Under the pieces are notes generated by a model, which worked only from the letters and a program-made list of their open reading frames with translations, made no database searches and had not been told where the DNA came from. Below, piece by piece: positions 4,105-44,236 of a DNA stretch of 64,000 nt; position 1 is the first letter of the stretch; each line of letters begins with the position of its first letter. Source of the DNA: Chitinophagales bacterium (GTDB lineage: Bacteria; Bacteroidota; Bacteroidia; Chitinophagales; UBA10324); contig JACDDS010000014.1 in the NCBI GenBank assembly GCA_013816805.1, positions 1 through 64,000 on the forward strand, read 5' to 3'. Made by a program: the position numbers and the translations under genes.

Positions 4105-5079
4105 TTACCAGCCTAGCAGCCAGGCAAAAACTAACGGTGCTACAATGCTTGCATCCGATTCAATGATAAACTTAGGAGTTTCTATACCTAGTTTTCCCCA
4201 TGTAATCTTCTCATTGGGAACAGCTCCGCTATAAGAGCCAAAGCTGGTAGTGGAATCTGAGATCTGGCAGAAATAACTCCAGAAAGGAACGTCATGCCAT
4301 TCGAGATCCTGGTACATCATGGGTACTACACAAATTGGGAAGTCTCCGGCTATGCCACCACCGATCTGAAAAAATCCGATACCTTTTCCATCTGAATTTT
4401 GTCTGTACCATTCTGCAAGCCAAACCATATATTCAATCCCGGACTTCATGGTCGAGGCTTTTAACTCATTTTTAATAACATAACTCGCAAAAATATTTCC
4501 CATGGTAGAATCTTCCCATCCGGGAACTACAATCGGGAGATTCTTTTGTGCGGCCGCAAGTACCCAGGAATTCTTCGGATCAATTTGATAGTATTGTTCA
4601 AGCACGCCACTGAGCAACATATGGTACATATATTCATGGGGGAAAAAACGCTGATTAGAAGATTCCGCTTCCATCCAGATTTTATAAATATGCTGTTGTA
4701 TCCTTCTAAAAGCCTCTTCTTCTGGAATGCAAGTATCAGTAACCCTGTTAAAATGATTTTCTAGTAAGTTCCACTCATCAGCGGGAGTAAGGTCCCGATA
4801 ATGCGGTACGCGCTCGTAATGGTTATGGGCTACCAGGTTCATCACATCTTCTTCAATATTTGCTCCGGTGCACGATATAATCTGCACCTTATCCTGACGA
4901 ATCATTTCTGCAAGCGAAATCCCCAGCTCTGCAGTGCTCATTGCTCCGGCAAGTGTAATCATCATTTTTCCCCCTTCATTCAAATGTATTTCATAACCCT
5001 TTGCGGCATCCACCAATGCAGCGGAATTAAAATGAAGAAACTGCCTCTCCATAAATTCTGATATTGGTCCTCTTTTCAT
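4105..5079 (-). CDS. Deoxyhypusine synthase family protein
   Basis: NAD-dependent enzymes of this family transfer the aminobutyl group of spermidine to a lysine (eIF5A in eukaryotes and archaea) or to a free amine such as putrescine (homospermidine synthases). The 324-aa protein aligns over its whole length: SAALVDAAKG, MMITLAGAMSTAELG (NAD site), ISCTGANIEEDVMNLV, and late GGGIAGDFPICVVPMM. The segment SGAVPNEKITWGKLG keeps the lysine (Lys296) that forms the enzyme-imine intermediate in deoxyhypusine synthase. Bacteria have no eIF5A, so a free polyamine acceptor (homospermidine-type or agmatine-type product) is more likely than protein modification. The frame opens at a TTG 18 bp earlier, but that codon lies in a TATATTTG box; I use the ATG at 5079. 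Neighbours give no polyamine context. Confidence 0.85.
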   Translation of the reverse strand: MKRGPISEFMERQFLHFNSAALVDAAKGYEIHLNEGGKMMITLAGAMSTAELGISLAEMIRQDKVQIISCTGANIEEDVMNLVAHNHYERVPHYRDLTPADEWNLLENHFNRVTDTCIPEEEAFRRIQQHIYKIWMEAESSNQRFFPHEYMYHMLLSGVLEQYYQIDPKNSWVLAAAQKNLPIVVPGWEDSTMGNIFASYVIKNELKASTMKSGIEYMVWLAEWYRQNSDGKGIGFFQIGGGIAGDFPICVVPMMYQDLEWHDVPFWSYFCQISDSTTSFGSYSGAVPNEKITWGKLGIETPKFIIESDASIVAPLVFAWLLGW

Positions 5080-5094
5080 ACCCTTATTTTTTTG

Positions 5095-5125
5095 CAAATA
5101 TAGAATGATGTGTCACCCGCGGGTG
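5095..5125 (-). promoter_or_regulatory. Candidate promoter box and palindrome before the deoxyhypusine-synthase-like gene
   Basis: On the minus strand TATATTTG (5095-5102) fits the Bacteroidota -7 box and ends about 15 bp before the ATG. Eleven bases further upstream is a perfect 12-bp palindrome CACCCGCGGGTG (5114-5125). No TTG stands at the -33 spacing. The palindrome resembles the TCACCCACGGTGA sequence in the promoter of the M43 protease gene, including a following A run, so both could bind the same regulator. That is inference from two sites only. Confidence 0.35.
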
Positions 5126-12266: not shown

Positions 12267-14246
12267 TTAATACTCCTTCAATTTTTTTAGTGCCGCCTTG
12301 AATCTTTCTTTAGGCAAAAAATTATTTTCGAGAGGAATTGCAAATGGGACGGGCGTGTCCAGTGAGGCACATCGCATAACAGGTGCATCAAGATAAGTAA
12401 ACAGATTTTCAGAAATCCAGGCTGCTATTTCTCCCCCTATGCCACCAGTTAAACAATCTTCGTGAAGAATTATAACCTTTCCGGTTTTCTTTACGCTTGC
12501 TGCAATTGCTTCTTTATCGAAAGGAAGTAGTGTTCTCAAATCAATAACATCAGCTGACACATCTGTGTTTTCTTTAAGCGTATCTAATGCCCAGTGAACT
12601 CCTGCTCCATAAGTAATCACAGAGACGTCCTCACCTTCCTGTACTGCCTTTGCTTTTCCAATTTCGGTGGTAAAGTAATCATCAGCTACCATACCGCTGA
12701 TGCTCCGGTAAAGGGCTTTATGCTCAAAAAAAAGAACTGGGTTGGGATCTTCAAATGCAGCTAACAACAGTCCCTTTGCATCATCCGGAAAAGCAGGGTA
12801 AACTACTTTTAAACCTGGAGTGTGCGTGAACCATGCTTCATTACTTTGGGAATGAAAAGGACCGGCACCCACACCTGCACCCGTAGGCATTCGAATTACA
12901 ACATCAGCATGTTGTTCCCAGCGGTAGTAGATTTTTGCAAGGTTGTTAATGATCTGGTTAAATCCGCAGGTTACAAAATCAGCAAACTGCATTTCAACCA
13001 TACTCTTATAACCTTTTACAGATAGGCCAAGTGCTGCACCTAATATGGCGCTTTCACAAAGCGGGGTATTGCGAACACGCTCTTTTCCAAAAATATTTAC
13101 CAAGCCATCGGTTACTTTAAATACACCTCCGTATTCAGCGATGTCCTGGCCCATGAGTATCAGGTTAGGATGATGCTCCATGGCCTGTTTCATTCCTTCG
13201 GCAATTGCATCAACCAATCGCAGCTCTTTTGATGAACCTGCTGAGACTGTGACTACAGGTGAATACGGAGCATATATATCATGAATTTCTGTTTCCGTAT
13301 TAGCAATCAGTGATGGTTCTTCAAAAGCAGTTTTTAAACCTTCATCGATTTCTGTTTTTAAAGTATTTCGGAATTCATTTTTTATATCTTCTTGCAAAAT
13401 GTTATTTTCCAGAAGAAAATTTTCATAAGATATTACCGGATCTTTCAAGCCCCATTCAGTTATCATTTCTTTTGGTACATACTTAATGCCGCTGGCTTCC
13501 TCGTGTCCTCTCATTCGGAAGGTCATACATTCCACCAGATAAGGTCGCTGGTTTTCAATACAATAATCTCGGATGCCTTTTATAGTCTCATAGACTTCAA
13601 TAATATTATTACCATCAATCGTGATGCCTTCCATACCATAACCTATTGCCCGGTCGGCTAATTGTTTGCAGCGAAACTGTTCCGAAGAAGGTGTCGACAG
13701 CCCGTAGCCATTATTCTCAATTAAAAAAATTACCGGCAGATTCCAAACGCTCGCCACATTCAATGCCTCATGAAAATCACCTTCACTAGTCCCTCCTTCG
13801 CCTGTAAATGCAAGAGCCACTTTATTTTCCTTGCGAAGCTGATGTGCTAACGCAATCCCATTGGCTATAGTAAGCTGCGGGCCCAGGTGAGAGATCATCC
13901 CTACAATGTGGTGCTCATTGGAGCCAAAATGAAAAGAGCGTTCCCTGCCTTTCGAATAACCGGAGCTGTTTCCCTGCCATTGGTTAAAGAGTTTTAAGAA
14001 AGGCATTTTACGAGTGGTAAATACACCTAAATTTCGGTGCAGTGGCATAATGTATTCATCTTCATCCAAAGCCAGCGTAGCTCCAACTGCTATTGCTTCC
14101 TGTCCAATGCCTGAAAACCATTTTGAAATTTTTCCCTGACGAAGAAGGTTGAGCATCTTTTCCTCTATAACACGCGGCTTTACAAGTGCTTTATACATTT
14201 CAATAAGTATCTCATTACTATAATTTTTTTTGTTGTAAATAATCAT
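12267..14246 (-). CDS. Fused E1 alpha-beta of a 2-oxoacid dehydrogenase (branched-chain type)
   Basis: Thiamine-diphosphate decarboxylase component of a 2-oxoacid dehydrogenase complex. At 659 aa it joins both E1 subunits in one chain. The alpha part (1-320) has GIGQEAIAVGATLAL, the ThDP/Mg motif GEGGTSEGDFHEALNVASVW and the phosphorylation-loop-like YRMRGHE counterpart FRMRGHEE. The beta part (about 335-659) has LMGQDIAEYGGVFKVTDGL, NTPLCESAILGAALGL and the C-terminal TGKVIILHEDCLTGG. Fused chains of this type are common in Bacteroidota and are usually assigned to branched-chain oxoacids, which this group uses to make iso-branched fatty acids; pyruvate or acetoin specificity cannot be excluded. 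E2 and E3 are not in the window. I use the ATG at 14246; a TTG seven codons earlier is also open. Confidence 0.88.
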   Translation of the reverse strand: MIIYNKKNYSNEILIEMYKALVKPRVIEEKMLNLLRQGKISKWFSGIGQEAIAVGATLALDEDEYIMPLHRNLGVFTTRKMPFLKLFNQWQGNSSGYSKGRERSFHFGSNEHHIVGMISHLGPQLTIANGIALAHQLRKENKVALAFTGEGGTSEGDFHEALNVASVWNLPVIFLIENNGYGLSTPSSEQFRCKQLADRAIGYGMEGITIDGNNIIEVYETIKGIRDYCIENQRPYLVECMTFRMRGHEEASGIKYVPKEMITEWGLKDPVISYENFLLENNILQEDIKNEFRNTLKTEIDEGLKTAFEEPSLIANTETEIHDIYAPYSPVVTVSAGSSKELRLVDAIAEGMKQAMEHHPNLILMGQDIAEYGGVFKVTDGLVNIFGKERVRNTPLCESAILGAALGLSVKGYKSMVEMQFADFVTCGFNQIINNLAKIYYRWEQHADVVIRMPTGAGVGAGPFHSQSNEAWFTHTPGLKVVYPAFPDDAKGLLLAAFEDPNPVLFFEHKALYRSISGMVADDYFTTEIGKAKAVQEGEDVSVITYGAGVHWALDTLKENTDVSADVIDLRTLLPFDKEAIAASVKKTGKVIILHEDCLTGGIGGEIAAWISENLFTYLDAPVMRCASLDTPVPFAIPLENNFLPKERFKAALKKLKEY

Positions 14247-14310
14247 GCTTGGTAAAATGTGGTGCAAAGGTCGCTTTCCGTTTTATAATTCTAAAATGAA
14301 TACTTAAAAG

Positions 14311-24224: not shown

Positions 24225-25253
24225 ATGCAAGCACTTTTTCTCGTAGGCGAACAGCGTTCGGGCTCTAACTTATTGCGCCTGATGATTTCTAATTCTCATG
24301 AGATTGCGGCTCCTCATCCTCCTCATATCTTACAACGCATTGATCCCATTGTTCCTGTAAGCCGGATATTAGACGATCATAAATTTAACCAGCTTGTTGA
24401 AAGTGTTTGTCGTTTGGTGGAAACCAATCCGGTGCCCTGGTTAAATACAGTGCTTGAACGTGATGACGTTAAAAGACGTTGCCGCGAGCAACATGTTATT
24501 GCAATATATGGTGCTGTAATGGATATTTATGCGGAGTCAAATAATGCACACGCATGGATGTGCAAGAGCATGCAAAATATCAGGTGGGCAGATTCACTTA
24601 ATAAATACTTTGGCAACAATAAATACATATACCTTCATCGTGATGCACGTGATGTAGCCTTATCTTTTACGAAAGCAGTAATTGGCGAAAAGCATGTTTA
24701 CTTTATTTCAAAGCAGTGGTCAGACCTTCAACGCCTTTCTCTTGATGCCCGCTCTAAACTACATTCTGACCGTTATTTCACCATATCCTACACAGGCCTG
24801 ACGGAAGAAACAGAAAGTACTTTACGGAATCTCTGTGGCTTCTTACGTATCGATTTCAGAAAAGATATGATGGAATTTTATGACAGTGAAGAGGCTAAAA
24901 ATACAGCAGCATCGAGCTCGCTCTGGGAAAATGTTACCAAACCTATCATGCATGATAATTCCAATAAATTTATGAAGGAATTGAAAGAAGATCAGCTTCG
25001 CATTATTGAATCTATAACCGGAAAGGAAATGGATGAATTAGGATATGAAAGAGTATTTATTAAAAACGGCGAAGAGATGCGTTTTACTGCTCAACAGGTT
25101 GAACAATTCCGTGAAGAAAATGAAAAGCTTAAAAAAGAGCAGGCCAAAAAGACAGATCCGGAAGATGCTGAAAAACGGAAAAGGCAGGAACAGGTGCTCA
25201 TTGAGCTAAAGCAAGCAGTTAAGGAATGGAAAGAAGAACAAGTGCTTTTATAG
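24225..25253 (+). CDS. Sulfotransferase family protein
   Basis: Transfers sulfate from PAPS to a hydroxyl or amine of an unknown acceptor. The 342-aa protein starts with the 5'-phosphosulfate loop FLVGEQRSGSNLLRLM (residues 4-19) and has the 3'-phosphate site KYIYLHRDARDVALSF near residue 140. The sulfotransferase fold ends near residue 260; the last 70 residues are a highly charged, heptad-like coiled coil not usual in the family. Twenty-one bases after chrA, same strand. No PAPS synthesis genes are in the window. Confidence 0.85.
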   Translation: MQALFLVGEQRSGSNLLRLMISNSHEIAAPHPPHILQRIDPIVPVSRILDDHKFNQLVESVCRLVETNPVPWLNTVLERDDVKRRCREQHVIAIYGAVMDIYAESNNAHAWMCKSMQNIRWADSLNKYFGNNKYIYLHRDARDVALSFTKAVIGEKHVYFISKQWSDLQRLSLDARSKLHSDRYFTISYTGLTEETESTLRNLCGFLRIDFRKDMMEFYDSEEAKNTAASSSLWENVTKPIMHDNSNKFMKELKEDQLRIIESITGKEMDELGYERVFIKNGEEMRFTAQQVEQFREENEKLKKEQAKKTDPEDAEKRKRQEQVLIELKQAVKEWKEEQVLL

Positions 25254-25321: not shown

Positions 25322-26131
25322 TTATGGAAGAATTTTAAGATCTTTTAAAATATCCATTGTAATAGTTGATCTCACCTCTGCAAAATTTTTTGGCTGCTTT
25401 TCAGATGATTCAATATTAAGTGCAAAAAAATAAACGCCAGTATCCTTCACAACATAGCCAATATACCAGCCAATATTTTTTCCTGATTCTTTTCCCCATC
25501 CCGTTTCCCCGCTTATGGAATAACCTGAAGTATGTTTTTGCAGCACAATTTTTTTAACGATATCTACTGAGCGTTTGGTAACCGGAAACTGGTACGTATA
25601 AAAATTCTTTAGAAATTCGATTTGCTCATCGCAGGAAATTCTTAAATCACCGTTCAGCCAAAAACTATCGATAATACTTCCCGTTTGCATATTTCCATAG
25701 TGCAGTAAATGAAGATATTGCTGCATTTTGCTTAATCCAACCCTTCGTGCCACTTCCTGATAATACCATGCGGTAGAGTTTTTAAACGCTTCTTCCATAT
25801 CCTGATCGTATTTCCCGGCAGGTATATCACGCTTTATACTATCCAATTCTATTACATAATGCTCATCAAAAACTACTTTAGTTTCTAAGGCAACAAGAGA
25901 ATTAAGAATATTAAAAGTAGAGGCAGGTATAAACCGTTGCGCACAACGGTCGGGATTATAATCTGTAAAAGCGGATTCTTTTAAGTCGTAGATCTCAATG
26001 CATCCGGTGACATTAAATTCATCAAAGTACTTTTTCCATTCTGGATGATGGTCTCCAATGGGAGGGGTGCAGGAGCTTAAAAGAAAAAACAAGAAACAAA
26101 AAAATAGAAAGTGTTTAGTTGGGATATTCAA
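25322..26131 (-). CDS. Class D beta-lactamase-like lipoprotein lacking both signature lysines
   Basis: A 269-aa protein with lipoprotein signal (FFLLSSC, Cys21) and the full class D (OXA) fold: IPASTFNILNSLVALE at 69-84, AWYYQEVARRVG near 121, HYGNM (YGN motif) at 144-148, FWLNGDLRIS near 157 and ETGWGKESGKNIGWYIGY near 209. In active enzymes the first motif is S-x-x-K with a carboxylated lysine, and the later one is K-T/S-G. Here they read STFN (Asn74, codon AAT at 25910-25912) and ETG (Glu209, codon GAA at 25505-25507). The nucleophile Ser71 is kept. Loss of both lysines argues against hydrolysis of beta-lactams; a sensor-like, structural or redirected role is more likely. The reading frame is intact, so it is not a simple pseudogene. 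Confidence 0.85.
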   Translation of the reverse strand: MNIPTKHFLFFCFLFFLLSSCTPPIGDHHPEWKKYFDEFNVTGCIEIYDLKESAFTDYNPDRCAQRFIPASTFNILNSLVALETKVVFDEHYVIELDSIKRDIPAGKYDQDMEEAFKNSTAWYYQEVARRVGLSKMQQYLHLLHYGNMQTGSIIDSFWLNGDLRISCDEQIEFLKNFYTYQFPVTKRSVDIVKKIVLQKHTSGYSISGETGWGKESGKNIGWYIGYVVKDTGVYFFALNIESSEKQPKNFAEVRSTITMDILKDLKILP

Positions 26132-26159: not shown

Positions 26160-26930
26160 TTACCATCGGCCACCGGCTCCGCCACCGCCAAAGCTTCCGC
26201 CCCCAAATCCGCCAAAACCACCACCGCCGCCAAAGCCGCCTCCGCCTCCCCCCAAACCCCGGCCCATGCCACCCAGAAACAGCCATGGAAAGAAAGACCC
26301 TCTCCGGTTAATAATACCACCACCGCCCCTGTTGATACGGTTCATAAGGAGCAGCAGAATGATGATCACAATAATTAAAGCAGCATACGATGAATGGGAA
26401 TCAGTTTTGCGAGTACCCAGCTCATTTACAAATTCGCCCCTTGTAAGCTTGATTATAGCTGAGGTTGCATCATCTAACCCCTGGTAATAATTATTGTTTC
26501 TGAAATTAGGAATAAGGATTTGATCTACGATTTGTTTAGCCTGCACGTCTGTAACCGGTCCTTCACCCCCTTTACCGGTAGCAATAAATACCTGGTGACC
26601 TGTTTCTTCCACAAGAATGACAAACCCATTGTCCTGTTTTTTACCGCCTACACCCCATTCATCACCAATCTTAAAAGCTGTTTGAGCAATATCGTTATCA
26701 TCGAGCGAGGTAACAGTAACAATAACGATTTGAACTGAGGTCGAATCGCTTAAAGCATCCAGCTTATATTCCAATTGCGCTACCTGGCCTGCAGACAGCA
26801 TGTGGGCAAAATCATTAACAAGCTTCGGTGGATCGGGTTTAGACGGGATCTGAAAAGCAAATACTGTATGTGCTGTAAATAGCACCAGGCAACTAAGAAC
26901 TGTATTTAAGAAAATGTTTCTCTTATTCAT
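26160..26930 (-). CDS. TPM-domain protein with signal peptide and Gly-rich tail
   Basis: A 256-aa envelope protein: signal peptide (about 1-26), TPM domain (about 30-170) with VNDFAHMLSAGQVAQLEYKL, DEWGVGGKKQDNGFVILV and FIATGKGGEGPVTDVQAKQI, one membrane helix near 190, and a C-terminal tail almost entirely of Gly and Phe. This architecture is that of YgcG/Psb32-type proteins. The ATG at 26930 overlaps the stop region of the upstream TPM gene by 8 bp; the longer frame start seen 11 codons upstream would lie within that gene. Operon lemA-TPM-TPM. LemA and TPM proteins are often paired; the molecular role is not settled. Confidence 0.85.
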   Translation of the reverse strand: MNKRNIFLNTVLSCLVLFTAHTVFAFQIPSKPDPPKLVNDFAHMLSAGQVAQLEYKLDALSDSTSVQIVIVTVTSLDDNDIAQTAFKIGDEWGVGGKKQDNGFVILVEETGHQVFIATGKGGEGPVTDVQAKQIVDQILIPNFRNNNYYQGLDDATSAIIKLTRGEFVNELGTRKTDSHSSYAALIIVIIILLLLMNRINRGGGGIINRRGSFFPWLFLGGMGRGLGGGGGGFGGGGGFGGFGGGSFGGGGAGGRW

Positions 26931-27369
26931 CGTCACCAAAATCAATTTCATCTGAAAGCTCATTCTTATCCTCTGGGCCTCGTGAAAAGTGTTTTTTTAA
27001 ATGTTCACCAGACATGGTAATTGCCTTAACCAAACCTTCTGCAAATTCATTATTCTGAAAATGGCCTTGCATGATTTCTTTCGTTTCATCCCAAAAATTT
27101 TCAGGCACTTTTTCATGGATACCTTTATCTCCCAAAATGGCAAAGACCTGGTCTTTACAGGCAACATAAATTAAAACACCTGTCCTATTTTCTGTTTTCT
27201 CCATTTGCATCTTCTGAAAAATCTCGATGGAGCGGTCAAGCACATTTTTCCTGCAATAGTTTTCGAAGAAAACTCTGATCTCACCTGAAGTTTTTTCTTC
27301 GGCTTCACGGATTGCAAGGACAATTTTGTCTTTTTCCTCAGCAGAAAGCAAATTTTTTGAAGAGGGCAT
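26923..27369 (-). CDS. TPM-domain protein (second copy, membrane-less)
   Basis: A 148-aa protein with a TPM domain (about 8-140): LSAEEKDKIVLAIREAEEKT, GEIRVFFENYC, NRTGVLIYVACKDQVFAILGDKGI. It has no signal peptide and ends in an acidic tail (DEIDFGDDE). It sits between lemA (5 bp gap) and the other TPM gene (8 bp overlap), so the three are translated together. The presence of one cytoplasmic-type and one exported TPM protein next to LemA is a recurrent arrangement in Bacteroidota. Confidence 0.85.
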   Translation of the reverse strand: MPSSKNLLSAEEKDKIVLAIREAEEKTSGEIRVFFENYCRKNVLDRSIEIFQKMQMEKTENRTGVLIYVACKDQVFAILGDKGIHEKVPENFWDETKEIMQGHFQNNEFAEGLVKAITMSGEHLKKHFSRGPEDKNELSDEIDFGDDE

Positions 27370-27374
27370 CAGCG

Positions 27375-28007
27375 TTATTTTCTTGATGTATCAGTGCCCG
27401 AATGGTGCATGTCAAAATTGATATCAGGAGGATTTTGGCTGCCAGGATTTGACTTGAAATATCCTTTCTCTGTAAACCCAAACATGCCTGCCATCATATT
27501 GTTAGGAAAAGTTTTGATGTAGGTATTGTAATCCTGAACTGAAAGGTTAAAATCATCCCTTGACTTATTGATACGGTTTTCAGTGCCTTCTATTTGTACC
27601 TGAAAATCCTTGAATTGTTGCGTAGTTTGAAGAGTAGGATACCTTTCCGCAACCACCAGCAAGCGGCTGAAGGCTGAGCTCAGCTGATCCTGGGCCTGTT
27701 GAAATTGCTGGATGGATTCAGGAGTAAGCTTGGATGGATCTACAGTCACCGACGTAGCCCTTGCCCTGGCATTTATAACCTGCGTTAATGTGCTTTGCTC
27801 AAAATCCGCAGACCCCTGAATTACCTTTACCACACTGGTATAAAGATCAGTACGGCGTTGATACTGACTTTCTACCTGCGACCATTTGGCCTGTGTATCC
27901 TGGTTCTTGGTCACCATATTATTGTAGGCTCCCTTGAATGTGGAATACAAGACAATGGCAATAAGAACAATAACTCCGATAACAATCAGTGACCTGTTTA
28001 TTTTCAT
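27375..28007 (-). CDS. lemA: LemA family protein
   Basis: A 210-aa protein with an N-terminal membrane helix (LIVIGVIVLIAIVLYST, residues 7-23) and the LemA helical bundle outside: NQDTQAKWSQVESQYQRR, LTQVINARARATSV, ERYPTLQTTQQFKDFQ, and near the end YNTYIKTFPNNMMAGMFGF. First gene of the lemA-TPM-TPM operon. A TACCTTTG box at 28043-28050 on the minus strand may be its -7 element, but no TTG is found at the right distance. LemA proteins are envelope proteins of unsettled role. Confidence 0.9.
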   Translation of the reverse strand: MKINRSLIVIGVIVLIAIVLYSTFKGAYNNMVTKNQDTQAKWSQVESQYQRRTDLYTSVVKVIQGSADFEQSTLTQVINARARATSVTVDPSKLTPESIQQFQQAQDQLSSAFSRLLVVAERYPTLQTTQQFKDFQVQIEGTENRINKSRDDFNLSVQDYNTYIKTFPNNMMAGMFGFTEKGYFKSNPGSQNPPDINFDMHHSGTDTSRK

Positions 28008-28101: not shown

Positions 28102-28440
28102 ATGCATCAACTCGTAAAAGCCTTCAACGACTATCGTTCAAAGATGAATGAAAAGATTCTATCTCAAAATAATAAAGTGATCAACCGTCTTTATAACCTT
28201 GATACCAATACGTATTCAGAAGGCGCGCTGAATGTAAAAACAAAGGAGATGCTGGGATTGGTTGCTTCCATGGTGTTGCGTTGTGACGACTGCATTAAAT
28301 ATCACCTGGGAAAATGTAAGGAAGCAGGAGTAACTACAGAAGAGATATTTGAGATTTTTGCAGTAGCAAATATCGTTGGCGGCACTATTGTGATTCCGCA
28401 TTTCCGGAGAGCTGTGGAATATTGGGAAGCGCTGGATTAA
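28102..28440 (+). CDS. AhpD-like / carboxymuconolactone decarboxylase family protein
   Basis: A 112-aa helical protein of the AhpD/CMD family. The catalytic segment LVASMVLRCDDCIKYHLGKC carries the C-x-x-C and downstream His of the AhpD redox centre, followed by EIFEIFAVANIVGGTIVIPH. Members act as alkylhydroperoxidases or decarboxylases; with the Cys pair intact a peroxidase or disulfide role is likely. Divergent from lemA. Monocistronic. Confidence 0.85.
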   Translation: MHQLVKAFNDYRSKMNEKILSQNNKVINRLYNLDTNTYSEGALNVKTKEMLGLVASMVLRCDDCIKYHLGKCKEAGVTTEEIFEIFAVANIVGGTIVIPHFRRAVEYWEALD

Positions 28441-28646: not shown

Positions 28647-29453
28647 TTAATAAAAAAACTGCTCTGATACTATCTTGCCAATCTTTACTTCATAGATCAT
28701 TATCTCATTGATCTGTATTCTTCCCAACCCCTGCACAGTAATATCGATTTCTCTTCCTACAGCGAAATGATTTCCGGCTACAATGGGCTCAGTTGTATAA
28801 CGTTTATGAGCTGCCTCTATACGTTTAACCCAGTCTTCACCTTTTTTGCGGACGTTAGCTTTGCCTTCTGCATATGCAAAATAGGGAGAATTTGGCGGGT
28901 CAATGCTTCGTACATTATCTGCAAACAGTTCGTCCTGAATCTCAAACCATTTTTCCTGCTGTGCAAGCTCACTGAACCGTGCAGCAACTTCATGAATCGT
29001 GTTTGCTTTTTCATTTCCATTAGGCTGACCTTTACCTGTAGTTATCAAATCCGGCAAACTATGCTCTATATATTGCGTCCAGCCATTAACACAGGCATTG
29101 TAACATTCATATTCAGGAACTAATCCTTCGTGCGTAAAGTGCAGTTTTGTTTTATTATCCTGTTGAGTAATTTCAAAGATGATTTTAGTTCCTATCCATT
29201 CGCTTTTGTCTTTTGTAAAAGAAAAGTAATTATCGAGCACAAGCCAAACGACCTTTTCGTCAGGAATCACTTCTATTAATTTCATTTTGCAGGAATGGAC
29301 ATCTTTATAATGATACGTAAACTCATCATTAAGTTTTTCTGTATTGCCATCAATTTCTTCTGACCACCATTGGCGGACATTATTGATGGCATTGAATACT
29401 TCTTTCGGTTTTTGGTCTACCAAAATGGTAGTGGTGAAATCTTGATTATTCAT
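28647..29453 (-). CDS. SRPBCC (AHSA1-like) protein fused to a SnoaL-like domain
   Basis: A 268-aa two-domain protein. Residues 1-145 form an SRPBCC ligand-binding domain ([48 protein letters not shown]) that is clearly paralogous to the next gene upstream. Residues about 150-268 form an NTF2/SnoaL-like domain (VAARFSELAQQEKWFEIQDE, NPPNSPYFAYAEGK-type turn, then VGREIDITVQGLGRIQINE and FYEVKIGKIVSEQF-type ending). The junction coincides with the C-terminus of the stand-alone paralogue (TTGKGQPN), suggesting fusion after duplication. No catalytic function can be assigned. Start 26 bp after the paralogue. Confidence 0.8.
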   Translation of the reverse strand: MNNQDFTTTILVDQKPKEVFNAINNVRQWWSEEIDGNTEKLNDEFTYHYKDVHSCKMKLIEVIPDEKVVWLVLDNYFSFTKDKSEWIGTKIIFEITQQDNKTKLHFTHEGLVPEYECYNACVNGWTQYIEHSLPDLITTGKGQPNGNEKANTIHEVAARFSELAQQEKWFEIQDELFADNVRSIDPPNSPYFAYAEGKANVRKKGEDWVKRIEAAHKRYTTEPIVAGNHFAVGREIDITVQGLGRIQINEIMIYEVKIGKIVSEQFFY

Positions 29454-29478
29454 GTTATATTTTTATTGATTTATTATT

Positions 29479-29925
29479 TCACTTTTCCTTTTTATTGGGC
29501 TGCCCTTTGCCTGTAGTTATCAGGCTCAGCAAACTACGCAAATAGTAGTTCCATCCATTTGAACAATCTTTGAAACATTGGATTTGAGGAACTAAACCTA
29601 AGTGCGTAAAATGAATTTTTGTTTTATCACCTTCTGTTGATATTTCAAAAATATTTTTCGTGTCCGTCCATTCGGTTTTATCTTTTAGAAAATTAAGTTT
29701 ACTGTCTGTAACAAGCCAAACAACTTTCTTGTTTGGGATTATTTCAACCAGTTTATATTTGGAATAATGCACGTCTCCAAAAACAACTTCGAATTCATCA
29801 TTCAGGTTTTCTGAACTGCCTTTAAAATCTTCTGACCACCATCCGTAAACATCATTGATGGCATTGAATACTTCTTTGGGAGATTGGTCAACTAACATCG
29901 TAGTTGTGAAATCTTGTGTGTTCAT
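29479..29925 (-). CDS. SRPBCC (AHSA1-like) domain protein
   Basis: A 148-aa single-domain protein: [25 protein letters not shown] at the start, [21 protein letters not shown] in the middle, [23 protein letters not shown] near the end. This is the START/Bet v1-like fold of the AHSA1 group, a hydrophobic-ligand or co-chaperone fold. It is the tandem duplicate of the N-terminal half of the next gene. Divergent from a GlxA-type regulator (123 bp between ATGs), which may control both. Confidence 0.8.
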
Positions 29926-40429: not shown

Positions 40430-43135
40430 TTAAGGATTGTAAGATAGATTGGGTGATAACCATTTCTCAACGTACTTCACCGGCACACCTTTCCTCATTG
40501 CATAATCTTTTACCTGGTCCAGGGCAATTTTCCCTATTCCGAAATATTTTGATTGCGGATGAGAAAAATAGAATCCACTTACCGAGGATGCAGGATACAT
40601 TGCAAAATTTTCAGTGAGAATTATCCCGCAATTTTTTTCTGCATTAAGCAAATCAAACAATGACCTTTTCTCAGTATGATCAGGGCAAGCGGGATATCCG
40701 GGAGCCGGTCGAATACCAATGTACTCCTCTTTTATAATTTCTTCAGTGGAAAGCGCTTCCTCTCTGGCATAACCCCAATATTCTCTTCTCACGAGCTCAT
40801 GCAACGTTTCTGCAAAGCCTTCTGCAAGACGGTCTGCCACTGCTTTGATCAAAATAGAATTATAATCATCATTATTGCTTTCAAATTCCTCAATTAATTT
40901 TTCAATTCCAATTCCCGCTGTTACAGCAAAAAATCCCATGTAATCCCCGGTATCACCTGATAGCGGGCGTATAAAATCTGCAAGAGAAAAATATTGTTGT
41001 GCTAGGGCTTTTTCATTCTGCTGGCGCAGGAAATGGAAACAGGTTTTTTCGTTTCCTGCTGCATCATAAATCTGAACATCATTGTCATTAATTGTTGCGG
41101 CAGGATAAAAACCGATTACTCCTTTAGCACGTAATGATTTATTTTTCACTACCGTGTCAAGCAAAGTATTGGCATCATCAAACAGTTTTTTTGCTTCCGA
41201 TCCAATTATTTTATCTTCAAAAATTGCCGGATATTTTCCATGTAATTCCCACGTTTGAAAGAAAGGAGTCCAATCTATTCTTTTCCTTATCAGCTCCAGT
41301 GAAAAATCCTCAAAAGCTTTAATTCCGGTAAAGGAAGGTTTTGGTGCAGTATAATTATTCCAATCGATACGGGTCTTATTTTTTCGGGCAAAATCTATGG
41401 ATACAAACTTTTTATCCTGTTTCCTTCCGGAATACTGAGCCCGCAATTCAGAATATTCCCCTTTGATTTTATTTGAAAAATTTGCTTTTGTTTCTTTTCC
41501 CAGCAAACTTCCTACAACCGTAACGCTCCTGGAGGCATCAAGGACATGTACCGTATCGCTTGAATAGTTAGGGGCTATCTTAACTGCCGCATGAACTCGT
41601 GAAGTGGTTGCGCCACCAATAAGCAGGGGCGTGGTGAATCCCAATCGCTCCATCTCTTTCGCAACGTGCACCATTTCATCAAGGGATGGAGTGATTAATC
41701 CACTCAGGCCAATAATATCTGCATTTTCCATTCGGGCGGTCTCCAAAATTTTTTCAGATGAAACCATAACTCCCAGATCGATAATGGAATAATTGTTACA
41801 GGCAAGTACTACCCCTACTATATTTTTACCTATATCATGTACATCTCCTTTAACCGTAGCCAGCAAAATTTTTCCAGCTTTAGTGGGGTTAATTTTCGAT
41901 TTTCTTTCTTCTATGAAAGGAGTTAAATAGGCAACTGATTTCTTCATCACGCGGGCACTCTTTACTACCTGGGGCAAAAACATTTTTCCTGAACCAAATA
42001 AATCACCGACTACGCTCATGCCATCCATAAGCGGCCCTTCTATTACTTCTATTGGTTCAGAATATTTTTGACGTGCTTCCTCTGTATCCTGCTCAATAAA
42101 TTCCACAATTCCTTTTACCAATGCATGCTTTAATCTCTCTTCCACCGAGAGCTTCCTCCATTCATCCTCCTGCTCCACCTTTTTGCCCTTTCGTTTTATC
42201 GTTTCAGCAAATGACACCAGTCGTTCGGTTGCATCAGACCTACGGTTAAATAATACATCTTCAATTGCCTCCAGAAGGTCTTTAGGAATTTCATCGTACA
42301 CTCCAATCATTCCGGCATTTACAATTCCCATGTCCATGCCCGCTTTCACTGCGTGATAAAGAAATGCAGTATGCATGGCATCTCTCACGGTATTATTTCC
42401 GCGGAAAGAAAAGGAGAGATTGCTTACTCCTCCGCTTACTTTTGCGTGAGGCAAATTTTCTTTTATCCATTTTACAGTGCGGATGTAATCAATGGCGTAA
42501 TTGCTGTGCTCTTCGATCCCAGTTGCAATGGCAAGTATGTTTGGATCAATAATAATATCCTGCGGAGGAAAGCCAATCTTTTTTATTAACAGGTTATAGG
42601 AACGTTTGGCAATTTGTATTCTTCTTTCAAAAGTGTCTGCCTGGCCTTTTTCATCGAAGCACATGACTACTACAGATGCGCCGTAGCGTTTTACCTTTTT
42701 AGCCTGCTGAAGAAATTTTTCTTCGCCTTCCTTCATTGAAATAGAATTTACTATTCCCTTTCCCTGAATACATTTTAATCCTGCTTCAATAATTTCCCAT
42801 TTAGATGAATCAATCATTACAGGCACCCTTGAAATGTCCGGCTCTGCTGAAATAAGATTTAAGAATTTCACCATAGCCTCTTTCCCATCCAGCATTCCTT
42901 CATCCATATTCACATCAATTATCTGTGCACCATTTTGAACTTGCTGCAATGCGACGGCAACAGCTGCTTCGTAATTTCCTGATAGAATTAACCTGGAAAA
43001 TTCCTTGGAGCCGGTAATATTGGTACGTTCCCCGATATTTATAAAATTTGTGGAAGGGGTCAGTGTTAGTGGTTCGAGACCACTCAGGCGCAGATAAGGT
43101 TTTATAACTTTTTTTTCTTCGTCAATTTCGTCCAT
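40430..43135 (-). CDS. metH: Methionine synthase, cobalamin-dependent, C-terminal subunit
   Basis: Carries the folate-, cobalamin- and SAM-binding modules of MetH in 901 aa. Pterin-binding domain (about 15-290) with [17 protein letters not shown] and [10 protein letters not shown]; cobalamin cap and binding domain (about 320-560) with [18 protein letters not shown] (the DxHxxG that ligates cobalt) and [14 protein letters not shown]; activation domain (about 580-900) with [16 protein letters not shown]. The homocysteine-binding module is the separate gene upstream (99 bp away). I use the ATG at 43135; a GTG four codons upstream is also open. MetH split in this way is common in Bacteroidota. 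Confidence 0.95.
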
Positions 43136-43234
43136 GTCGATTAGCACCTAACCATTAAATGCGCTACCTATTTAATGTTAAATTATTATTTGATTTGTAC
43201 AGTTGTATCCTTTGTTATAATATTATTTACTCTT

Positions 43235-44236
43235 TTAATATTCAAATACAGGAAGCATTCGTGGCTTTATACCTTTTACGGAATCAGCAATAGCAAGAAT
43301 ATGATCAGGTGTGGTTCCGCAGCATCCCCCTATTATATTTATAAATCCGGCTTCTGCAAACTCTTTTAATACCGTTGCCATGTGTTCCGGAGATTCATCA
43401 TATTCACCAAATTGATTTGGCAACCCTGCATTAGGATAGCAACTGATGTAGCTTGTGGCAACATTGGAAAGCTCTTCTATATATGGTCGCATAAGCCCGG
43501 CCCCCAAAGCACAATTTAATCCAACAGAGAGTGGATCGGCATGAGCAATAGAGTTCCAAAAGGCTTCAGGTGTCTGTCCGCTTAATGTCCTGCCACTTTG
43601 ATCAGTAATAGTTCCTGAAACCATGATTGGCAACTCTTTTCCTATTTCATCAAAGTAGTCTCTGATTGCAAACAAAGCTGCTTTAGCGTTTAACGTATCA
43701 AAAATGGTTTCCACCAAAAGCAAATCTGCACCTCCATCAATAAGCCCTTTTATTTGTTCTCTGTATGCTTCTGCGAGCTGATCGAAGGTGACAGCTCTGA
43801 ACCCAGGATCATTAACATCAGGAGACAGAGAAGCTGTTTTATTGGTAGGACCGATGGCACCCGCTACAAACCGGGGTCTGCCAGGTGTTATATCGGAATA
43901 TTTTCGTGCAGCTTCTTTTGCAATTTTTGCTGCAGCAAGATTTATCTCATAGGCAAGAAATTCCATTTTATAATCTGCGAGAGAAATCTTTTGGGCATTA
44001 AAAGTATTCGTCTCAATTATATCTGCGCCAGCCGCAAGATAAGCCTCATGTATTTCAAGGATAATATCAGGCCTGGTTAAGCTTAAGAGATCATTATTAC
44101 CTTTCAGATCGTGGGTAAAATTTCTGAAACGATCTCCCCGGTAGTCTTCTTCATTTAATTTGTAGCGCTGAATCATGGTACCCATTGCTCCATCGAGGAT
44201 AACGATTCTGTGATCTAAGATTTGTGTAAGTTGCAT
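43235..44236 (-). CDS. Methionine synthase, homocysteine-binding subunit
   Basis: The homocysteine S-methyltransferase module of MetH as a 333-aa protein. It has [21 protein letters not shown] at the start and the three zinc cysteines: LNCALGAG near residue 230 and [11 protein letters not shown] near 305. With the downstream 901-aa gene it forms the whole of MetH: homocysteine binding, then folate, cobalamin and activation. Preceded by a SAM-I riboswitch, so the pair should be turned down when S-adenosylmethionine is plentiful. ATG start. Confidence 0.95.

Follow-up and report, generated by a model that had tools for sequence, protein, structure and literature searches.

A class D beta-lactamase homolog without its motif lysines in the LemA-TPM gene cluster of a Chitinophagales family

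What does a class D beta-lactamase homolog do once both of its signature lysines have been replaced? The question is raised by a gene on the minus strand (positions 25322 to 26131) of the 64,000-nucleotide stretch of Chitinophagales DNA analyzed here, which we call the window. The open frame encodes 269 amino acids and begins with a signal peptide and an LSSC lipobox that ends at Cys21 (26069 to 26131), a cysteine common to the family members. The earlier note's description of a full-length lipoprotein holds, with the caveat that the TTG at 26131 is the sole ATG, GTG, or TTG start in the frame and is immediately preceded by an in-frame TAA. The encoded protein is homologous to class D beta-lactamases across the whole domain. 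It matched the NCBIfam class D model NF012161 with an E value of 1.4e-72 and Pfam PF00905 with an E value of 6e-26, and its top PDB matches were OXA-type beta-lactamases, including 6nhs at 3e-55. A structure model built from two sequences had a mean pLDDT of 35.5, too low to be usable. The expectation that homology searching would mislabel this gene as a resistance determinant was borne out in part: Pfam- and BLAST-type searches would do so, but the NF012161 rule would not name the gene, as the score of 243.8 bits falls below the curated cutoff of 250.

The codons that define the two substitutions read exactly as had been claimed. Motif I (25910 to 25921, minus strand, as are all of the motifs given here) is STFN, running from Ser71 (TCT, 25919 to 25921) to Asn74 (AAT, 25910 to 25912) in place of Lys74, and the KTG motif (25499 to 25507) is ETG, with Glu209 (GAA, 25505 to 25507) in place of Lys209. 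The elements said to be intact, namely, Ser71, Y145-G-N (25691 to 25699), F157-W-L (25655 to 25663), and L163-R-I-S, are all present, and Arg254 (25370 to 25372), the equivalent of the carboxylate-binding arginine, is likewise retained. Comparison with homologs revealed four further changes in the pocket: W96L, W106G, N107K, and V121A. Gly106-Lys107 (25811 to 25816) stands where relatives have the Trp-Asn of the pocket cap, and Ala121 replaces the S-x-V valine in motif II (S119-T-A121; 25769 to 25777). Among the class D motifs, YGN and FWL are thus present and S-x-x-K, S-x-V, and K-[TS]-G are absent, and the protein shows one mark of a pseudoenzyme, the loss of catalytic residues from an otherwise conserved homolog.

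These losses are rare. Lys74, Lys209, Ser119, Trp158 of the FWL motif, and Arg254 were each found in all of 65 Chitinophagales homologs sampled outside the window's family, and the S-x-V valine was found in 60 of the 65. A DNA pattern for STF or STY followed by Asn or Asp occurred in 3 of 396 genomes of the order, all in the window's family. Among 296 genomes of the phylum, the same pattern was seen only in the window and in two unrelated places, both of which proved to be non-homologs and were set aside. No clade sharing STFN and ETG was found: ETG is unique to the window genome among those compared, and the losses of Lys74 look independent. A single sequencing or base error, or chance, is ruled out, since the pocket differs at several independent positions and Asn or Asp also occupies position 74 in relatives.

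Class D enzymes rely on a carboxylated lysine as general base for acylation as well as for deacylation, and the OXA-24/40 variants K84D and V130D are deficient in deacylation, leaving trapped acyl-enzymes (PMC9293634). The same two positions, Lys74 and Val121, are changed in the window protein, in which the replacements are natural rather than made in the laboratory, are combined in one protein, and occur in a protein that has also lost the KTG lysine and pocket tryptophans. Because the carboxylatable lysine is absent, the lysine-pocket valine is gone, and the charge of the binding lysine is reversed, we consider beta-lactam turnover by the window protein very improbable, in agreement with the earlier note, and its binding of beta-lactams is probably poor. 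ETG alone need not inactivate such a protein, as a listing by motif alone includes a RASA-1-related, putative class A candidate that carries ETG (PMC12649608).

Comparison with known systems places the protein apart from each of them. It shares with the class D serine beta-lactamases Cpin_0907 (8ep6), 6nhs, and OXA-48 its whole-length homology, Ser71, YGN, FWL, Arg254, and a secreted location, but unlike those enzymes it is without the S-x-x-K lysine, the KTG lysine, and the S-x-V valine, and it is encoded in a LemA-TPM cluster. As a separate observation, an IMG/VR contig (IMGVR_UViG_2912029355_000008; L118:53-820) carries an apparently intact OXA-48-like gene with STFK and KTG. The sensor domain of BlaR1 and MecR1 also has the class D fold, is acylated, and is slowly hydrolyzed. 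In contrast to those sensors, the window protein is a stand-alone lipoprotein with neither a fused N-terminal membrane metallopeptidase nor the motif lysine, and it scored 184 bits against the BlaR1_generic model, for which the cutoff is 400. The literature searched contained no relevant report of a class D pseudoenzyme.

The gene neighborhood is that of the LemA/TPM envelope clusters of Bacteroidota, and no beta-lactamase-fold member of such clusters was reported in the literature found. The beta-lactamase homolog is the fourth gene of a LemA-TPM-TPM cluster, assigned by Pfam matches and synteny, all on the minus strand. The first gene encodes LemA (27375 to 28007; PF04011, 7e-51), followed by a short TPM-domain protein, TPM1 (26923 to 27369; PF04536, 2e-20), and a TPM-domain membrane protein with a Gly-rich tail, TPM2 (26160 to 26963; PF04536, 2e-36), which lies directly upstream of the homolog across a 28-bp gap. 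A divergent CMD-family gene on the plus strand (28102 to 28440; PF02627, 7e-18) forms the cluster border in every relative with enough contig. The homolog is present in 7 of the 16 genomes of the window's family, a sample of few genomes, several of them fragmented assemblies, and the order CMD, LemA, TPM1, TPM2, beta-lactamase homolog is identical in six of these. In the genome denoted G004, the contig breaks at the locus, and the gene on the other side is deoxyhypusine-synthase-like, as in G005, G008, and G009. The sister genera g2 and g8 have LemA-TPM-TPM, and no beta-lactamase homolog was found in their genomes; this absence indicates that the gene is dispensable at the family level. In other families, the homolog did not adjoin TPM genes within a flank of approximately 1.5 kb on each side. 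The fixed slot within the family, together with the absence of such linkage elsewhere, shows that these are orthologs in one inherited slot and not mobile resistance genes. The homolog is inherited vertically within the family.

Other features of the window were observed in passing. A deoxyhypusine-synthase-family gene, here in a bacterium, lies at 4105 to 5097 (minus strand; PF01916, 2e-38); its ortholog is near the beta-lactamase homolog in the four genomes named above, and the gene order in the window differs. A sulfotransferase-family gene (24225 to 25253, plus strand; PF13469, 2e-22) is convergent with the homolog and was not seen beside it in the relatives' contigs compared. Two adjoining genes at 28647 to 29925 (minus strand) have a related N-terminal START/SRPBCC-like region, the first with an extra C-terminal part, and likely represent a tandem duplication. 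A single 666-amino-acid open frame (12267 to 14267, minus strand) looks like a fusion of the two E1 subunits, alpha and beta, of a 2-oxoacid dehydrogenase, and MetH, as read from the translations, is apparently split into a homocysteine methyltransferase part and a pterin/B12/activation part (40430 to 43147 and 43235 to 44236, minus strand).

The family members form a series from intact to fully disarmed active sites. The protein from G007, the Chitinophagales metagenome-assembled genome CAN_BIN04, is canonical, with STFK, STV, KTG, and the arginine. Within a single genus, G005 has STFK, STV, and KTG with the arginine displaced by one position, G004 has STFN, STL, and KTG without the arginine, and G003 has STFD, STL, and KSG in a gene cut by the contig end. 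The window copy has STFN, STA, and ETG with the arginine, and G008 and G009 are without the serine, the lysine, FWL, KTG, and the arginine. Canonical STFK/KTG orthologs thus remain in two genera of the family, and a third genus has lost the serine and KTG. In all three members that keep the serine but not the lysine of motif I (window, G003, and G004), the S-x-V valine is also lost, being replaced by Ala, Leu, and Leu, respectively. Of 32 sites that 90% or more of the homologs outside the family have in common, the number changed was 3 in G007, 5 in G005, 7 in the window protein, 9 in G004, 12 in G003 (5 of which are gaps at the contig end), 19 in G009, and 21 in G008. The reading frame is open in each of the seven genomes, although a contig end truncates it in one.

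A gene tree built with the motif columns taken out recovered the family as monophyletic (support, 100/99) and the genus above as (G005,(G003,G004)) (100/97), and grouped the window sequence, G007, and the serine-less pair together (86/32 and 99/86). On this tree, the state of Lys74 requires three changes. A marker tree from the neighboring genes weakly grouped the window with G003 and G004 (75/74), an arrangement that would allow one fewer loss but is disfavored by the 100/97 support in the gene tree for the grouping of G003 and G004 with G005. From these trees, two independent disarmings would be a lower bound, and three is the better-supported count, as G003, G004, and G005 belong to one genus.

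If the active site is no longer maintained, which part of the protein is? Residues 24 to 69 (GDHHPEWKKYFD...GC...DYNPDRCAQRF; 25925 to 26062, minus strand) are kept in the disarmed orthologs. The canonical G007 protein and the serine-less G008 protein are 70% identical in this segment and 10% identical in the motif I segment (residues 70 to 100). Canonical pairs that reach outside the family show the opposite pattern, with 30 to 37% identity in residues 24 to 69 and the highest identity, 61 to 74%, in the motif I segment. Only 1 of 33 replacements specific to the window protein falls inside residues 24 to 69 (P = 0.009); the replacements cluster at the pocket, at positions 74, 76, 81, 96, 105 to 108, 121, and 209. 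Invariant across the family and rare elsewhere are G26, H28, D57, D61, and the pair Cys44 (26000 to 26002) and Cys63 (25943 to 25945). Cys63 is found in all seven family members and in 2 of the 65 other homologs, and both cysteines together occur in all seven and in 1 of the 65. Judged from sequence, a Cys44-Cys63 disulfide is probable in the family proteins. In the disarmed orthologs, the best-conserved part is no longer the active site but the membrane-proximal N terminus.

Selection could be gauged best in two close pairs. For G003 and G004, both without the lysine, pairwise dN/dS was 0.25, compared with 0.06 to 0.11 for the neighboring genes, and a codon likelihood model gave an omega of 0.27, with omega = 1 rejected (likelihood ratio test [LRT], 37.8). 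For the serine-less pair G008 and G009, pairwise dN/dS was approximately 0.09, with synonymous sites nearly saturated, compared with 0.06 to 0.16 for the neighbors, and the codon model gave an omega of 0.08, with omega = 1 rejected (LRT, 163). The disarmed genes in both pairs are under purifying selection and are not junk. On the window branch, omega was 0.14 to 0.16, and omega = 1 was not firmly rejected (LRT, 2.3 and 3.9) because synonymous sites are saturated. A family-wide branch-specific model was saturated except in the close pairs (with an omega of 0.003 for the background and branch lengths at the bound), and its values for deep branches were not used. Lineage-specific replacements relative to those in the neighboring genes were 35:20 versus 57:83 with G005 as the outgroup (Fisher P = 0.004), and the excess had a P value of 0.05 with G003 as the outgroup. 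The window gene has changed more rapidly than would be expected from its neighbors.

Such acceleration invites the reading that selection has been relaxed, with a vertically inherited beta-lactamase decaying toward loss and the window copy an intermediate with no present role. Several observations are consistent with decay: family members have lost conserved sites to increasing degrees (3, 5, 7, 9, and about 20 of 32), two sister genera lack the gene, the window copy has a single TTG start, and the dN/dS of the STFN/STFD pair is 2 to 4 times that of neighboring genes. We nonetheless regard it as an unlikely account: every frame in the family is open, apart from the contig-end cut, constraint on the serine-less pair equals that on its operon neighbors, and it is the active site rather than residues 24 to 69 that has taken the losses, whereas neutral decay would be expected to spread evenly.

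A role as a binder, trap, or sensor of beta-lactams or peptidoglycan peptides, in which Ser71 is acylated and the acyl-enzyme is left unhydrolyzed as in OXA variants with a replaced lysine, is a good deal less probable still. Such trapping occurs in OXA-24/40 when Asp replaces the lysine or when the S-x-V valine is changed (PMC9293634), the window protein keeps Ser71, Ser119, YGN, Trp158, and Arg254, and the STFD and STFN relatives retain KTG or KSG. The suggestion of the earlier note that the protein binds beta-lactams without turnover is nevertheless not favored, given the replacement of the KTG lysine by Glu, the loss of Trp106 as well as Trp96, the existence of same-slot orthologs with no serine, and the lack of an attached signaling domain. 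A changed enzyme that uses Ser71, Asn74, and Glu209 for new chemistry is very improbable; Ser71 is kept and both replacement residues are polar, but the N74/E209 pair occurs in one genome only among those compared, no second catalytic motif was found, and the serine-less orthologs persist.

We think it somewhat more probable than not that the window protein is a beta-lactamase-derived pseudoenzyme with a binding or scaffold role in the envelope cluster, since repeated disarming with the protein kept, beside the same envelope genes, suggests a noncatalytic job. An ancestral chromosomal class D gene would have become the fourth gene of the LemA-TPM-TPM cluster in one Chitinophagales family and been inherited vertically there, catalysis then being lost repeatedly and the protein retained. 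Its present role would be that of a lipid-anchored, noncatalytic binding or scaffold subunit, predicted to act through residues 24 to 69, with GDHHPEW and the probable Cys44-Cys63 disulfide, together with the cell wall or the LemA/TPM proteins. It has been proposed that TPM domains help membrane complexes to assemble (PMC11237479), and a Flavobacterium sppA mutant that has envelope defects shows upregulation of lemA and of a TPM-domain gene (PMC13236525); these reports lend weak, indirect support to this reading. The fuller proposal, that the cluster captured a class D gene and converted it at least twice, and probably three times, to a structural or binding lipoprotein of which the N terminus and not the active site is the selected part, we hold at about even odds.

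Genes for serine beta-lactamases are almost always interpreted as resistance determinants, and this family warns against annotating resistance from homology. Its active-looking, half-disarmed, and fully disarmed orthologs, all in one slot, constitute a natural series on the roles of the beta-lactamase fold besides hydrolysis, and the family offers a way into the LemA/TPM cluster, which is itself poorly understood.
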